Shown here piece by piece: positions 30,300 to 48,442 of a stretch of DNA of 64,000 nucleotides. The translations under genes were made by a program, and so were the position numbers. Below the pieces are notes generated by a model. It did not search any database, was not told where the DNA came from, and was given only the letters and a program-made list of their open reading frames with translations. Location: the NCBI RefSeq assembly GCF_004153685.1, contig NZ_SDQD01000002.1, positions 806,001-870,000 of the forward strand. Direction: 5' to 3'. This stretch comes from Pollutimonas harenae (GTDB taxonomy: Bacteria > Pseudomonadota > Gammaproteobacteria > Burkholderiales > Burkholderiaceae_B). Every line of letters begins with the position of its first letter. Position 1 is the first letter of the stretch.

Positions 30300-31106
30300 A
30301 TGAGCAGTCTCGTTACCGACCCATCCGACCTGAACAAAATGCGTGCCGCCTGCCAGGCAGCTGCGGCTACTCTCGACTTCCTGGCACCTCATGTGCAGGC
30401 AGGCATCACCACGGGCGAACTCGACAAACTCTGCATGGATTTCATCACCAACGAGCTTAAGGTCGAGTCTGCCACAGTCGGCTACGCCCCTCCTGGTTAC
30501 ACGCCTTTCCCCGCTTCTATTTGCACCTCGGTAAACCACGTTATCTGCCATGGCATTCCTGGCGACAAGGTTCTGAAGAACGGCGACATCATGAATATCG
30601 ATGTTACCGTCATCAAGGATGGCTGGTTCGGCGATACCAGCCGCATGTATTATGTGGGCGAGCCTTCCATCCTGGCCCGTCGCCTTGCTGAAACCACCTA
30701 CGATTGCATGTGGCTGGGCATTGAGCAGGTTCGCCCCGGCGCTACGCTGGGCGACATCGGGCAAGCCATCCAGAAGCATGCCGAAAAACAAGGCTTTTCC
30801 GTTGTGCGCGAATACTGCGGACATGGCGTTGGTCGTAAATTCCATCAAGACCCTCAAGTTCTGCATTATGGAAAAGCCGGTACGGGCGAAAAACTAGAAG
30901 CGGGCATGATCTTCACCATCGAGCCCATGATCAACGCCGGCCGCAAAGAAATCCGTACGCTGGCAGATGGCTGGACCGTCGTCACCCGTGACCATAGTCT
31001 GTCGGCACAATGGGAGCACAGCATTCTTGTAACCGATACAGGTTACGAGGTCCTTACGATTTCCGATGCCATGCCCCAGCCACCCGTATTCATCAAAAGC
31101 GTTTGA
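30300..31106 (+). CDS. map: Methionine aminopeptidase, type I
   Basis: A 268-residue metalloenzyme removing the initiator methionine. The metal ligands are visible in NGDIMNIDVTV and WFGDTSRMYYVG (two Asp), CGHGVGRKFHQDP (His), FTIEPMINAG (Glu) and QWEHSILVT (Glu). It is divergent from rpsB, a common proteobacterial pairing, and its stop codon overlaps the likely TTG start of glnD. Confidence 0.97.
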   Translation: MSSLVTDPSDLNKMRAACQAAAATLDFLAPHVQAGITTGELDKLCMDFITNELKVESATVGYAPPGYTPFPASICTSVNHVICHGIPGDKVLKNGDIMNIDVTVIKDGWFGDTSRMYYVGEPSILARRLAETTYDCMWLGIEQVRPGATLGDIGQAIQKHAEKQGFSVVREYCGHGVGRKFHQDPQVLHYGKAGTGEKLEAGMIFTIEPMINAGRKEIRTLADGWTVVTRDHSLSAQWEHSILVTDTGYEVLTISDAMPQPPVFIKSV

Positions 31107-42225: not shown

Positions 42226-44937
42226 TTAAGCGTGATGCGGGTTGGCTTTTTCAGGATTGATGCCATACTTTTTGATGGCTTCTGCGACTTTGGCCATGGG
42301 CAACTTGCCTTCATCGGCCAATCCGCGCAAGGCAGCCAGCACCACAAAGTGACGGTCGACCTCGAAGTGTTCGCGCAGCTTGTAGCGGAAGTCGGAACGG
42401 CCGAAACCATCGGTACCCAATACCCTGAACGTGCGATCTTTAGGAATATAGGGGCGAATCTGGTCGCCATACGACTTCACATAGTCGGTCGAAACAATAA
42501 TGGGGCCGGTAGTATCCTGCAGCTTCTGGCTGACGTACGACACCGGGGCCTTGCTGTCTTCGGGATGAAGCAGGCTGTGACGTTCGCAATCGAGGCCATC
42601 GCGACGCAATTCGGTAAAGCTGGTCACGCTCCAGACGTCGGAGGCCACGCCCCAATCGCTGTCCAGCAATTCCTGGGCGGCAAGGACTTCACGCAGTATG
42701 GTGCCCGAGCCCATGAGCTGGACACGCAGTTTCTTGCTGTCACCATGCGATTTGAACTTGTACATCCCGCGGATAATGCCCTCTTCGTCACCTGCCTTCA
42801 AGCCCGGTTGAGCGTAGTTCTCATTCATCACGGTGATGTAGTAGTACACATTTTCCTGGTTCTCGACCATGCGTTTCAGGCCGTCCTGAATAATGACAGC
42901 CAGTTCGTGTCCGAAGGTCGGATCGTAGGAAACACAATTAGGAATGAGGGCCGACATAATGTGGCTGTGACCGTCTTCGTGTTGCAATCCTTCGCCGTTC
43001 AGGGTCGTGCGTCCGGCCGTACCGCCCAGCAGGAAACCGCGCGCCTGCATATCGCCCGCTGCCCAGGCCAGATCGCCAACGCGCTGAAAACCGAACATCG
43101 AGTAATAGATAAAGAACGGAATCATGATTCGGTTATTGGTCGAGTATGACGTCGCGGCGGATATCCAGGAGCTGAAGGCGCCCGCCTCGTTGATCCCTTC
43201 TTGCAGTAACTGGCCGTTTTCCGTTTCACGGTAATACATGACCTGGTCTTTATCGACAGGCGTGTATTTTTGACCTTCTGGCGCATAGATGCCGATCTGG
43301 CGGAACAAACCTTCCATACCGAACGTACGGGATTCGTCAGCCAGTATGGGTACCACACGCGGGCTGAGCTCCTTGTCGCGCAGAATTTGATTCAGGATGC
43401 GTACAAAAGCTTGCGTAGTGGAAATCTCACGGCCTTCGGCAGTGGGTTCCAGTACAGCCTTGAAGGCTTCAAGTTTGGGTGCAGAGAGTTGTTCATCTGC
43501 CTTTACACGGCGATGGGGCAAGTAGCCGCCAAGACTATTGCGGCGTTCGTGCAGGTATTTCATTTCGGGCGAGTCGTCGGCCGGCTTGAAATACGGCAAT
43601 TGTTCGAGCTTGTCGTCGGGTACGGGAATGTTGAAGCGGTCACGGAATTCGCGCACGGCTTCCATGTCGAGCTTCTTTTGCTGGTGCGTGGGATTCTTGG
43701 CCTGGCCCACGTGCCCCATGCCGTAACCCTTGATGGTCTTGGCAAGAATGACTGTAGGCTGACCGGAATGCTCGGTGGCTGCCTTGAATGCAGCATAAAC
43801 CTTGTAAGGATCGTGACCGCCGCGATTGAGGCGCCAGACGTCTTCGTCGCTCATGCGGCTGACCATTTCGAGCAGCTTGGGATGTTTGCCGAAGAAGTGC
43901 TCGCGCACAAACTTACCGTCGTGTGCCTTATAGGCCTGGTACTCGCCGTCGACCGACTCCTGCATGACCCGGCGCAAAATACCTTCTTTGTCACGTGCGA
44001 GAAGAGGATCCCAGTACCCGCCCCATATCAGCTTAATGACATTCCAGCCGCTGCCGCGGAAGTCGCCCTCGAGTTCCTGAATGATTTTGCCATTGCCGCG
44101 CACCGGGCCATCTAGGCGCTGCAGGTTGCAGTTAATGACAAAAATGAGGTTGTCGAGTTTCTCGCGCGAGGCGAGGCTGATGGCGCCCAGGGATTCGGGC
44201 TCGTCCATTTCACCATCGCCGCAAAACACCCAGACTTTACGCTTGCTGGTGTCGGCAATGCCACGTGCATGCAGATATTTGAGGAAACGAGCCTGATAAA
44301 TGGCCATCAGAGGGCCCAGGCCCATGGACACTGTGGGGAATTGCCAGAAGTCGGGCATCAGCTTGGGATGCGGATAGGATGGCAAGCCCTTGCCATCGAC
44401 TTCCTGGCGGAAATTGTTCAGCTGCTCTTCGGTCAGGCGGCCCTCAAGATAAGCGCGACCATAAATACCGGGCGATGAATGCCCCTGAAAATAGACCAGA
44501 TCACCGCCGTGATCTTCGGTTTCAGCATGCCAGAAATGGTTTTGTCCGCAACCTATCATGGTGGCCAAGGACGCGAATGAGGCAATGTGGCCACCCAGGT
44601 CGCCGCCATCGGGTGGGTTGTGACTGTTGGCCTTGACCACCATGGCCATGGCATTCCAGCGCACATATGAGCGGATACGCTCTTCCAGTATCAGATTGCC
44701 CGGATGCGCAGGCTCCAGGCCCGGCGGTATCGTATTGACGTAAGAAGTATTGGGTGAAAAAGGAATATAGGCACCTGAGCGTCGTGCCAGGTCGATCAGC
44801 CGTTCCAGCAGGAAATGAGCGCGTTCTGGTCCTTCCCGATCAAGTACGGCTTCGAGCGCTTCGAGCCATTCTTGTGTTTCAAGAGCGTCGTCATCGACGT
44901 CTGTTGCTTTAGTGTTTGCTTGATCAAGAGAGGACAT
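42226..44937 (-). CDS. aceE: Pyruvate dehydrogenase E1 component, homodimeric
   Basis: A 903-residue thiamine-diphosphate enzyme decarboxylating pyruvate and acetylating E2. The ThDP motif is GDGEMDEPES followed by NLIFVINCNLQRLDG; SFASLATMIGCGQNHFWHAE, GRTTLNGEGLQHEDGHS and MNENYAQPG are conserved in the AceE type. AACAGGAGACAGCAG precedes the ATG as the ribosome-binding site. It heads the aceE-aceF-lpdA operon and is divergent from a two-component system; a good sigma-70-like promoter lies about 125 bases upstream. Confidence 0.98.
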   Translation of the reverse strand: MSSLDQANTKATDVDDDALETQEWLEALEAVLDREGPERAHFLLERLIDLARRSGAYIPFSPNTSYVNTIPPGLEPAHPGNLILEERIRSYVRWNAMAMVVKANSHNPPDGGDLGGHIASFASLATMIGCGQNHFWHAETEDHGGDLVYFQGHSSPGIYGRAYLEGRLTEEQLNNFRQEVDGKGLPSYPHPKLMPDFWQFPTVSMGLGPLMAIYQARFLKYLHARGIADTSKRKVWVFCGDGEMDEPESLGAISLASREKLDNLIFVINCNLQRLDGPVRGNGKIIQELEGDFRGSGWNVIKLIWGGYWDPLLARDKEGILRRVMQESVDGEYQAYKAHDGKFVREHFFGKHPKLLEMVSRMSDEDVWRLNRGGHDPYKVYAAFKAATEHSGQPTVILAKTIKGYGMGHVGQAKNPTHQQKKLDMEAVREFRDRFNIPVPDDKLEQLPYFKPADDSPEMKYLHERRNSLGGYLPHRRVKADEQLSAPKLEAFKAVLEPTAEGREISTTQAFVRILNQILRDKELSPRVVPILADESRTFGMEGLFRQIGIYAPEGQKYTPVDKDQVMYYRETENGQLLQEGINEAGAFSSWISAATSYSTNNRIMIPFFIYYSMFGFQRVGDLAWAAGDMQARGFLLGGTAGRTTLNGEGLQHEDGHSHIMSALIPNCVSYDPTFGHELAVIIQDGLKRMVENQENVYYYITVMNENYAQPGLKAGDEEGIIRGMYKFKSHGDSKKLRVQLMGSGTILREVLAAQELLDSDWGVASDVWSVTSFTELRRDGLDCERHSLLHPEDSKAPVSYVSQKLQDTTGPIIVSTDYVKSYGDQIRPYIPKDRTFRVLGTDGFGRSDFRYKLREHFEVDRHFVVLAALRGLADEGKLPMAKVAEAIKKYGINPEKANPHHA

Positions 44938-45061
44938 CTGCTGTCTCCTGTTTAAATGGTGGAATCGGATACGAAAACTTGCACCAATGTGTCACGTTAT
45001 ACATGAATACCCGACTGTTGCGAATCTTGACTTTCGGCTGGCTCGTATTCCTAGCTGCCTT

Positions 45062-45090
45062 ATTCTAGGAAAGACCCAGTAGATGTTCAA
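45062..45090 (-). promoter_or_regulatory. Probable sigma-70 promoter of aceE-aceF-lpdA
   Basis: On the reverse strand, TTGAAC (45085-45090) and TAGAAT (45062-45067) are separated by exactly 17 bases. The transcript would have a leader of about 120 bases. No comparable pair lies closer to aceE. Confidence 0.65.
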
Positions 45091-45119
45091 GCAAAATTTC
45101 ATTTTATGATATTAATTTT

Positions 45120-45162
45120 TATAATGTGAAATGCGGTAAATGTGGATACCGTCTAAAATGCA
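45120..45162 (+). promoter_or_regulatory. Possible promoter and dyads ahead of the histidine kinase
   Basis: TATAAT at 45120-45125 sits in AT-rich DNA but has no good -35 box. Just downstream are CGGTA (45134-45138) and TACCG (45147-45151), a 5-bp dyad with 8-base spacing. These could serve the kinase operon, or act as sites near the aceE promoter on the opposite strand. Confidence 0.4.
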
Positions 45163-45192
45163 CACAGCATTTGCATCGCGCTTACAGTTCGT

Positions 45193-46971
45193 ATGGCGCT
45201 TGAACATAAAAACATGGCGACTCCTTCCAAGAAATCCCTGATACCCACCACGTTCTATGATCAGGCCAATCATCCCCGCCGCGGGTTCTATTGGCTGACC
45301 CCGGTCATCGTGTTGATTCTGTATCTGTGCGTCATGGGAGTGTTTGTCTGGCTGCAGCAATTGCACAACGACAGTGTCATGTTCGTCACCATAGACCAGG
45401 AAACACGTCAGCAGCGCCTGCTCATGGTCGTCGCCGCCCTCTCACTGGTCATCGTATTAAGCTTGCTGGCCCTCTGGCGCTATACACGTTTTCGCACTCG
45501 GGCCGAAGCCGCCCTGATCGCCGAAACAGGCTTTCGGCGTGCCATGGAAAACTCCATGTCCACAGGCATGCGGGTATTCGACATGCATGGCCGTATCGCC
45601 TATGTCAATCCGGCGTTCTGCCGCATGATAGGCTGGAATGAAGCCGACCTGATCGGCCGAACCACACCTTTTCCCTATTGGCTTCCGGGCCGGCACGCCC
45701 AGCACCAGGAAACACTCGACGTCCTGCTGTCGGGCCGTACCCCCAGCAGCGGCCTCGAGGTCGAGGCACAACGACGCGACGGATCGCGCTTTACTGCGCG
45801 CATGTACGTATCGCCGCTGCGAGACCCCAACGGCGAACAAATTGGCTGGATGACCTCGATGACCGACATCACCGAGCCCAAACGCATACGCGAAGCACTG
45901 ACTGCCGCCCATGAACGCTTCATGACCGTGCTCGAAGGCCTGGACGACGCTATTTCGGTGGTCGCCGATACAGCCGACGGCCTTGAGCTCCTGTTTGCCA
46001 ACCGTACTTATCGACGCTTTTTTGGCGCCCAGTCCAATGGTCACGCCGAGTTGCTGGGCGGTCGCCTGGGCCGCTTCACCGACGAAACCGTAGAGACTTT
46101 TTCAAGTTCGGCACAACGCTGGTTCGAAGTGCATCACCGTATCCTGGCCTGGACCGACGGGCGCCGAGTACGTTTGCAGGTAGCACGCGATATCACCGAA
46201 AGGCGCACGCATGAAGAAGCATCACGTGTCCAGCAAGAAAAAATTCAACTCACCAGCCGCCTGACTACCATGGGCGAAATGGCTTCGTCGCTGGCACATG
46301 AACTGAACCAGCCTCTGACGGCCATCAGCAACTACAATATGGCTGCTGTGGCCATGCTCAAGTCCGGTCATGCCGATCCTGATCGCTTGGTCGAAGCACT
46401 TGAAAAGGCCGCCAGCCAGGCCGAACGGGCAGGCAAGATCATCAGCCGCATACGTGAATTCGTCAAACGCAGCGAACCGCGCCGACAACAAGTATCGGTC
46501 ATGCGCATAGTCGAAAACGCGGTGGGCTTTGCCGACATCGACGCCCGCAAGCGTCAGGTGGAAATACAGCTGGACCTGCCCGAATACATTCCAGACGTCC
46601 TGGCCGACCCCATACTGATCGAGCAGGTATTATTGAACCTGCTCAAAAATGGCGTCGAAGCCATGGAAAGTAGTGACTATCGTACCTTGCATCTGGTCAT
46701 CACCCATCAGCTCCCGCTGATCGAAATCGCCGTTATTGATCGCGGCCACGGACTACGTGACCCCGAGCGTCTGTTTGAGCCTTTTTACAGCACCAAATCC
46801 GAGGGCCTGGGCATGGGGCTTAATATCTGCCGTACTATTATTGAATCGCACCATGGCCGCCTATGGGCCAGTGCCAACCCGGAAGGCGGTACTATTTTCC
46901 GTTTCACCCTGCCCTGTGCCCAGCCACAAGCCACCAGCACAACAGAAAAACCCCAGGAGTTGAATGCATGA
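45193..46971 (+). CDS. Membrane sensor histidine kinase with PAS domains (FixL-like)
   Basis: A 592-residue kinase. Two membrane segments (about 33-57 and 76-95) enclose a very short periplasmic loop of about 18 residues, so sensing is probably internal. Two PAS domains follow (about 115-235 and 240-345; the first contains NPAFCRMIGW). HisKA has the phospho-acceptor H369 in SSLAHELNQPLTAISNYNM; the ATPase domain has NLLKNGVEAM, IDRGHGL and GLGMGLNICRTIIE. The stop overlaps the regulator ATG (46968-46971). ATG 45214 is an alternative start. No heme pocket can be affirmed. It is divergent from aceE. Confidence 0.9.
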   Translation: MALEHKNMATPSKKSLIPTTFYDQANHPRRGFYWLTPVIVLILYLCVMGVFVWLQQLHNDSVMFVTIDQETRQQRLLMVVAALSLVIVLSLLALWRYTRFRTRAEAALIAETGFRRAMENSMSTGMRVFDMHGRIAYVNPAFCRMIGWNEADLIGRTTPFPYWLPGRHAQHQETLDVLLSGRTPSSGLEVEAQRRDGSRFTARMYVSPLRDPNGEQIGWMTSMTDITEPKRIREALTAAHERFMTVLEGLDDAISVVADTADGLELLFANRTYRRFFGAQSNGHAELLGGRLGRFTDETVETFSSSAQRWFEVHHRILAWTDGRRVRLQVARDITERRTHEEASRVQQEKIQLTSRLTTMGEMASSLAHELNQPLTAISNYNMAAVAMLKSGHADPDRLVEALEKAASQAERAGKIISRIREFVKRSEPRRQQVSVMRIVENAVGFADIDARKRQVEIQLDLPEYIPDVLADPILIEQVLLNLLKNGVEAMESSDYRTLHLVITHQLPLIEIAVIDRGHGLRDPERLFEPFYSTKSEGLGMGLNICRTIIESHHGRLWASANPEGGTIFRFTLPCAQPQATSTTEKPQELNA

Positions 46972-47594
46972 CTACACCCCAAGCACCGAGCACAATATAT
47001 ATCGTCGATGACGACGAAGCGGTACGCGACTCATTGCGCTGGCTGCTGGAAGCCAATGGCTATCGCGTCCGTAGCTTCAGCGGTGCCGAAGAATTCCTTC
47101 ATGCCTATGAACCCGACCAGGTGGGTGTCCTGATTGCCGACGTACGCATGCCCGGCATGAGCGGCCTGGAGCTGCAAGAGGAACTTCTCCGGCGTGAAGC
47201 GCCCTTGCCTATTGTGTTCATCACCGGACACGGAGACGTGCCAATGGCCGTCTCGACCATGAAAAAAGGCGCTGTCGATTTTCTTGAAAAGCCTTTCAAC
47301 GAAACCGACCTGCGCAACATTGTTGCACGCATGCTCGAACAGGCCTCCGAGCGGGTCAGCCAGGCACAGGCGCAAAAGAACCATCAAGCTGTGCTCAGCC
47401 GCCTGACCGCGCGTGAACAGCAGGTACTCGAACGCATCGTGGCTGGTCGCCTGAACAAGCAGATTGCCGGCGACTTGAACATCAGTATCAAAACTGTCGA
47501 AGCACACCGTGCCAACATCATGGAAAAACTCGAAGTCACCACCGTGGCCGACCTCATGAAAATCGCCCTGACCAAAGCTGAGGGCGTCGCATGA
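46968..47594 (+). CDS. FixJ-family response regulator (receiver plus LuxR-type HTH)
   Basis: A 208-residue regulator. The receiver domain has the acidic pocket [17 protein letters not shown], phospho-acceptor D58 in [11 protein letters not shown], and the lysine in FLEKPF. The C-terminal LuxR/GerE helix-turn-helix spans about 143-200 ([35 protein letters not shown]). This arrangement is typical of FixJ. It is coupled by 4-base overlaps to the kinase before it and folD after it. Targets are unknown; the divergent aceE operon and folD are the obvious candidates. Confidence 0.92.
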
Positions 47595-48442
47595 CCGCGC
47601 GTATTCTCGACGGAAAACTGCTTTCTGACTCTGTCAAGGCTGAAGTAGCCACTCGTGTTGAAGCGCTGAAAACGCGCGGAATCACCCCTGGCCTGGCCGT
47701 TGTCCTGGTTGGCTCGGACCCCGCCTCGCAAGTCTATGTCCGCAACAAGGCGGCGGCTTGCGAAAAAGCCGGGCTACATTCGCGCGTCATACGCCTGGAC
47801 GGTGACATCACAGAAGAAGCCTTGCTCGATGTCGTACGCGAGCTGAATGGCGACGATGCCGTGCATGGCATACTGGTGCAACTGCCGCTGCCGCGTCACA
47901 TGAATGCGGCCAAGGTCATCGAAACCATCGCCGCCGACAAAGACGTGGACGGCTTCCATATCAGCAATGCAGGCCTGCTCATGACGGGCCAGCCTTTGTT
48001 CCGGCCATGCACGCCATACGGCATCATGAAAATGCTTGAATCCGAACAGATTTCGCTGTGGGGCGCCGAGGCTGTTGTAGTGGGTGCCAGCAACATCGTG
48101 GGCAAGCCCATGGCCATGCTGATGCTGGCTGCAGGCGCTACGGTCACCCTGTGCAATTCCAAAACTCGTGACCTGGCGGCACAAACACGCCGGGCCGATG
48201 TGCTGGTAGTAGCCACCGGCAAGCCGGGCATGGTGACCGGCGACATGATCAAGCCCGGCGCCACGGTCATCGATGTGGGCATCAACCGCAACGATCAGGG
48301 CAAGCTCGTTGGTGATGTCGATTTCGACTCGGCACGCGAAGTGGCCGGTCTTATTACTCCCGTTCCAGGTGGTGTCGGCCCCATGACCATCGCAATGCTG
48401 CTGGTCAATACACTGGAAGCCGCTGAACGCCGCGCCACGTAA
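47591..48442 (+). CDS. folD: Methylenetetrahydrofolate dehydrogenase / methenyltetrahydrofolate cyclohydrolase
   Basis: A 283-residue bifunctional one-carbon enzyme. Conserved features are [20 protein letters not shown] with the active-site YVRNK lysine, [36 protein letters not shown] and the C-terminal [15 protein letters not shown]. It interconverts methylene- and formyl-tetrahydrofolate with NADP. Its ATG is inside the last codons of the response regulator (ATGA, 47591-47594), an uncommon coupling. Confidence 0.97.

Follow-up and report, generated by a model that had tools for sequence, protein, structure and literature searches.

In a 64,000-nucleotide stretch of the Pollutimonas harenae genome (assembly GCF_004153685.1, contig NZ_SDQD01000002.1, positions 806,001 to 870,000; hereafter the window), genes for a sensor histidine kinase and a response regulator lie between folD and a divergent aceE, which encodes pyruvate dehydrogenase E1. 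The explanation that best accounts for the findings, and that we consider fairly probable, is that the two proteins are a pair of the AccSR/BphPQ type located beside aceE and that aceE itself is under an autoregulated IclR-family regulator acting through a tandem dyad in the aceE/kinase intergenic region. Most likely, this regulator would bind the dyad, which adjoins the aceE -35 box on its upstream side, and control aceE; it may also act at matching sites ahead of aceA (isocitrate lyase) and in this way couple the glyoxylate shunt to pyruvate oxidation. For the response regulator of the pair, the main targets would most likely be other genes, as is the case in relatives, rather than aceE by way of a site conserved here.

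Comparisons were made mainly among loci of the family of the window, f1 (f1, f7, f31 and similar designations are family labels of the genome collection used). Among named organisms, Pusillimonas and Pollutimonas proved nearest when another gene of this genome was compared. A kinase match was present in 115 of 121 f1 genomes, and 110 loci were usable after omission of G012, G037 and G051 (split over contigs or partial) and of G093 and G113 (weak match only). The divergent aceE was within 800 bases of the kinase in 106 of these loci, and 99 of the 106 intergenic regions were aligned within length limits. Blocks conserved in the 99 regions corresponded to the aceE ribosome-binding site, the aceE -10 box and part of the -35 box, the tandem dyad, a kinase -10 box and an ATG at position 45214; no further conserved block of at least 4 bases was seen in this alignment. 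An earlier reading made from the sequence alone (the sequence-only reading) had placed the aceE promoter in the divergent region, and a sigma-70-like site with a conserved -10 and a partly conserved -35 was indeed located there; the scan for such sites returned three as against 0.9 expected and was relied upon only in combination with conservation.

The tandem dyad is of the TTTCA-N5-TGAAA type and is evident from its conservation. None of 200 shuffles of the window region scored as high as the tandem, and the tandem pattern occurs once in this genome, i.e., in the aceE/kinase intergenic region. A matrix trained on aceA only (109 sites from 30 aceA upstream regions, the best 30 of 78 genomes with a match) detected the tandem in 102 of the 106 aceE/kinase intergenic regions compared with 0.2% of shuffles. 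Spacing between the two sites was 20 bases in all 102 regions, and the tandem began 35–36 bases from the aceE -10 box in 90 of the 92 regions in which this box was found. The dyad is phased to the aceE promoter and not to the kinase. The standard deviation of the distance between tandem and aceE was 32 and its correlation with intergenic length 0.58, as opposed to 63 and 0.91 for the distance between tandem and kinase, and the distance from the tandem to the kinase -10 box was variable (22 bases in 25 of 83 regions, interquartile range 22–74).

This geometry bears on the alternative in which the tandem dyad is a target of the response regulator of the pair itself, which would thereby control both aceE and its own operon, with aceA as another target. 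Divergently encoded regulators often act on a shared intergenic region, and the dyad lies in such a region, its second site in the window being placed as a class II activator site for the kinase promoter would be. In addition, a Burkholderia dolosa mutant with a growth defect attributed to the kinase and a wide regulon has been reported (PMC5234846). We nevertheless judge this alternative unlikely because the dyad is locked to the aceE promoter rather than to the kinase gene, because it is common to aceA and an iclR-like gene, and because it is kept in three f7 genomes (G126, G218 and G257) that carry a strong tandem at aceE (scores 26.9–36.2, 0 of 100 shuffles) and no AccS orthologue, their best kinase matches being weak and limited to the kinase core (E 5e-41 to 6e-19). 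Further evidence against it came from f1 kinase loci away from aceE, where the tandem was absent in three of three cases within the 800 bases available. Autoregulation of the kinase through the dyad was also considered and is unsupported, given the variable distance to the kinase -10 box and the missing dyad at these three loci.

An IclR-type regulator predicted from the recurrence of the dyad, rather than the regulator of the pair, is thus the most likely candidate to govern aceE. A search of the P. harenae genome for single sites with up to 2 mismatches gave six places, the best two of which were the aceE/kinase intergenic region and a position about 200 bases upstream of aceA. A dyad site with a score of 16.9 also precedes an IclR-family gene (L325 1542-2354), 26 bases from its ATG. 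Among 80 named relatives, 79 had a site scoring at least 13 in the region upstream of this iclR-like gene, as against 1 of 400 control stretches taken from these loci. The product of this gene matched HTH_IclR (54.1 bits, cut-off 22) and IclR_C (140.2 bits, cut-off 24). Its best curated model was BhcR, known from Paracoccus, at 173 bits against a cut-off of 350, and it likewise fell short of the NCBIfam model for Escherichia coli-type IclR (PRK11569, 135.8 bits against 380) and of the KdgR cut-off; since all three cut-offs were missed, the product is classified by its sequence in an unnamed IclR subfamily. BhcR acts as an activator, and a potential site for it lies upstream of a -35 box (PMC11323563), so the position of the dyad upstream of the aceE -35 box would permit activation; the sign of the regulator's effect, like its binding and its ligand, is at this stage predicted. 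Another regulator that serves both aceE and aceA is RccR of Pseudomonas, which differs in belonging to the RpiR family and in recognizing TGTAGT/ACTACA rather than TTTCA/TGAAA (PMC5489143, PMC10810197), and RccR was rejected as the dyad-binding factor on the basis of this site. One RpiR-type helix-turn-helix match was noted in the P. harenae genome (L317). A literature search, which covered few subscription journals, found no publication that places aceE and aceA of this group under an IclR regulator.

Several observations weigh against assignment of the dyad to this regulator. Within cysS of the same genome there is a site whose score (17.4) exceeds that of the site at the iclR-like gene, and the site may be common to other IclR paralogues. 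The tandem was missing in four f1 intergenic regions (L119, L122, L123 and L124), and neither the kinase nor aceE was accompanied by a dyad in G014, where the two are apart. Outside f1 the dyad is patchy and is missing in much of the order: of 23 sampled genomes that had no kinase match at 1e-60, 3 carried a tandem with a score of about 20 or more at aceE, as did 3 of the 17 whose kinase match lay elsewhere. Finally, single sites were not enriched in the P. harenae genome as a whole (34 matches as against 37 for a reversed control pattern), a result that leaves a wide single-site regulon unsupported.

Other sequence elements were noted in the course of these searches. Between the dyads and aceA there is a conserved palindrome of the GTCTTATATAAGAC type (L227, about 97–84 bases upstream of aceA, and relatives L228–L256), which is a putative site of a second regulator. 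An element like TGCTGCGNNGCA follows the dyad at aceA (L227–L256) and was also seen at the iclR-like gene (L325 1516-1528) and upstream of aceE in f31 (e.g., L212); it resembles a PhaR-type site. Two single sites inside cysS (L331) were set aside, and a single-site match at positions 30859-30873 of the window (TTCTGCATTATGGAA) has no tandem partner, such matches being no commoner than those of the control pattern.

The arrangement of the genes beside aceE is not due to chance. The response regulator began within 60 bases of the kinase in 110 of 110 f1 loci, and of the 105 f1 loci in which folD was found, 100 had it no more than 100 bases from the regulator. The four f1 loci without aceE in the available DNA were L060 (365 bases upstream only), L108, L109 and L125. 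In the window, the ATGA overlaps between kinase and regulator and between regulator and folD were read directly, as was the divergent orientation of aceE, and the earlier observation as a whole is confirmed; the description of folD as translationally fused to the pair went too far, as the genes overlap and are coupled only and there is no protein fusion. Exact 4-base overlaps are less general than the gene order itself, occurring between kinase and regulator in 79 of 110 f1 loci, between regulator and folD in 59 of 105 and at both junctions in 53 of 105. The longer open reading frame of the kinase (45193-46971, forward strand) starts 255 bases from aceE. However, the kinase probably starts at residue 8 of this frame, i.e., at the ATG at 45214, which was kept in at least 90% of the aligned intergenic regions and by strict position was found in 72 of 106 relatives compared with 8 of 106 for 45193; with this start, the kinase comprises 585 residues and the gap to aceE 276 bases.

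Homology and gene order support the view that the kinase and regulator make up an AccSR/BphPQ two-component system, which senses metabolic state, in a form particular to this family. Other characteristics of AccSR/BphPQ are inhibition of the kinase by quinone and control of catabolite repression. The association of AccSR-type pairs with ace genes is already known in print: accSR-like genes are mostly near ace genes, and redox coupling has been suggested (PMC6456745). Like AccS and AccR of Azoarcus sp. CIB, the pair consists of a multi-PAS kinase with HisKA and HATPase_c domains encoded directly upstream of a FixJ-like regulator and near ace genes, the former position being shared by all 110 f1 loci and the latter by 106. 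In contrast with AccS, which has a periplasmic region (residues 38-254), three PAS domains and three redox cysteines (PMC6456745), the window kinase has no such periplasmic region, two PAS domains and only the third cysteine. BphP-type kinases, exemplified by BphP/BphQ of Acidovorax sp. KKS102, resemble the window kinase in that they lack the first PAS of AccS and occur near ace genes in Burkholderiales, but they possess a periplasmic domain that is absent from the window kinase, a comparison based on their description in PMC6456745. An AccR site ascribed to earlier work, ATGCA-N6-TGCAT, was not found in the publication searched for it, and no such conserved block was present in the alignment of 99 intergenic regions.

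The sequence-only reading had the kinase without a sizeable periplasmic sensor and with two PAS domains, and both statements hold. The hydrophobic stretches of the window kinase (about residues 36-54 and 76-94) enclose a loop that is only some 21 residues long, in place of the large periplasmic region of the AccSR/BphPQ system, and PAS-1 (residues 114-231) is followed by a second, weaker match (PAS_8, 25.5 bits, cut-off 21.8). A long N-terminus was found in 8 f1 kinases (g34 and g43), and there was one extension by open frame (L094, upstream open frame of 160 codons), which was left out of the kinase tree. In this tree of 66 kinases (52 of the 110 from f1 and 14 others; midpoint root, several long branches), where a long kinase was defined by its stop-to-stop open frame, the long g43 kinases were sister to the 44 short f1 kinases (support 99/96 and 99/97) and those of g34, also long and also from f1, clustered with kinases outside f1, so that a single loss of the periplasmic domain would be enough to account for the short f1 kinases. 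Long and short N-termini required two changes in the tree, one in f1 and one in f17; the short kinases L133 and L136 of f17 represent an independent loss outside the family of the window.

Equivalents of the three redox cysteines of AccS were assigned by alignment and by spacing from the catalytic histidine. Thus assigned, Cys694 (position 382 of the window kinase) was cysteine in 0, Cys697 (385) in 1 and Cys863 (546) in 109 of 110 f1 kinases, and position 385 was alanine in 94 of the 110. The corresponding numbers for f31 kinases were 31, 7 and 33 of 33. The AccS thiol switch is not expected in f1 kinases, judging by the missing equivalents at 382 and 385 and the prevalence of alanine at the latter, since C697A alone abolished inhibition of AccS by quinone (PMC6456745); another redox route is possible. 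Lacking both the periplasmic domain and two of the three quinone-reactive cysteines, the f1 kinase would probably respond to an internal signal, probably via PAS-1.

Description of the pair as FixLJ-like is appropriate as a statement of homology but not of membership. The window kinase scored 253 bits with the NCBIfam FixL equivalog NF041777 (cut-off 850) in an alignment limited to residues 322-577, and the regulator scored 230.6 bits with the FixJ equivalog NF006900 (cut-off 255). His171 of PAS-1, a candidate heme ligand according to an alignment by eye, was present in 100 of 110 f1 kinases whereas histidine occupied the equivalent position in 0 of 33 f31 kinases (L188–L217, L174, L176 and L178) and in 1 of 14 other syntenic kinases outside f1; judged by this position, heme would not be a feature common to the whole system. 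That the pair is a true FixLJ-type oxygen sensor, with heme in PAS-1 and with aceE and folD within a low-oxygen response, we regard as quite improbable in light of these missed cut-offs and the distribution of histidine, despite the frequency of His171 within f1, a weak match of PAS-1 to heme-PAS chains of FixL (e.g., 2cmn, E 6.8e-5) and the requirement of B. dolosa fixLJ for low-oxygen induction of a fixK reporter (PMC5234846).

The FixLJ of the Burkholderia cepacia complex is, as far as residue spacing can indicate, very probably the same system as the window pair. The spacing of the published residues G345, R347 and W439 of B. dolosa FixL was found in 30 of 30 f31 kinases adjoining aceE, with aceE on the opposite strand in each, and the equivalents in the window kinase (G125, R127 and W219) were invariant in 110 of 110 f1 and 33 of 33 f31 kinases; the likeness was drawn through these f31 kinases. 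Two results did not fit: T353 of B. multivorans (PMC8406202), taken at B. dolosa numbering, matched 0 of 30 f31 kinases, and the published B. dolosa start was not reproduced, residue 1 under that numbering being methionine in 1 of 5 readable f31 loci. The f31 kinases also differ from the window kinase in having a long N-terminus and, in the 31 of 33 noted above, cysteine at the first AccS position. Two publications, PMC5234846 among them, nevertheless describe a predicted heme pocket in the Burkholderia FixL.

The earlier proposal of a signal linking pyruvate oxidation with folate metabolism was reasonable in its first half, which had already been put forward for relatives (PMC6456745), and unsupported in its second, and the earlier interpretation as a whole is partly supported. 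The associations of aceE with the pair and with folD are separable. In other families, folD was the immediate divergent neighbor of aceE, with no pair in between, in 6 of 20 loci (G218, G257 and G174 of f7; G259, G177 and G220 of f10), and no folD was present in the available DNA at 7 of 7 loci of f17 and f9 with both the pair and aceE. A folate signal is therefore not needed to explain the position of folD. These same loci render improbable a functional role of the overlap in which the pair would match one-carbon metabolism to pyruvate oxidation, a possibility otherwise favored by the proximity of folD to the regulator in nearly all f1 loci, an arrangement that is old and kept. The overlap would lead to joint expression with folD and not necessarily reflect a folate signal.

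Table 1. Positions in the window of the genes around the pair and of elements in the aceE/kinase intergenic region.
Feature	Positions	Strand	Basis
aceE, pyruvate dehydrogenase E1 (homodimeric type)	42226..44937	-	TIGR00759, 1442 bits, cut-off 860
Probable aceE ribosome-binding site	44943..44950	-	Conserved block, 99 aligned intergenic regions
Probable aceE promoter: -10 TAGAAT (45067-45062), -35 TTGAAC (45090-45085)	45062..45090	-	Sigma-70-like site; -10 strongly, -35 partly conserved
Tandem dyad, two 15-base sites 20 bases apart; probable operator of IclR-family regulator	45097..45131	.	Conservation, shuffles
Probable kinase-operon -10 (TAAAAT), no conserved -35	45154..45159	+	Conserved block; -10-like word in 83/102 regions
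Sensor histidine kinase, AccS/BphP type, 585 aa	45214..46971	+	Two transmembrane segments, PAS-1, PAS-2, HisKA, HATPase_c
Response regulator, receiver and LuxR-type helix-turn-helix (AccR/BphQ/FixJ-like)	46968..47594	+	Domain matches
folD, methylenetetrahydrofolate dehydrogenase/cyclohydrolase	47591..48442	+	NF010786, 478 bits, cut-off 421

For the Alcaligenaceae, we tentatively suggest the joint proposal, which may or may not hold in both its parts, that an unnamed, autoregulated IclR regulator serves as a pyruvate/acetyl-CoA/glyoxylate switch through an aceE tandem of fixed geometry and several copies of the site at aceA, and that an AccS-type kinase that has lost its outer sensor and thiol switch reads a cytoplasmic signal via PAS-1, the domain in which conserved residues become mutated during chronic Burkholderia infection. 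The quinone switch of AccS should not be assumed in f1, and similar caution applies to the Burkholderia system, which has been studied as an oxygen sensor although histidine is absent from the aligned PAS-1 position of the f31 kinases examined. The findings also correct the natural guess that a regulator encoded divergently from aceE controls aceE, as the conserved operator-like element keeps its place relative to the aceE promoter and may be present where the kinase is missing. They point to a small candidate regulon for control of central carbon metabolism, comprising the iclR-like gene, aceA and aceE, in a group that includes Achromobacter, Alcaligenes and Bordetella.

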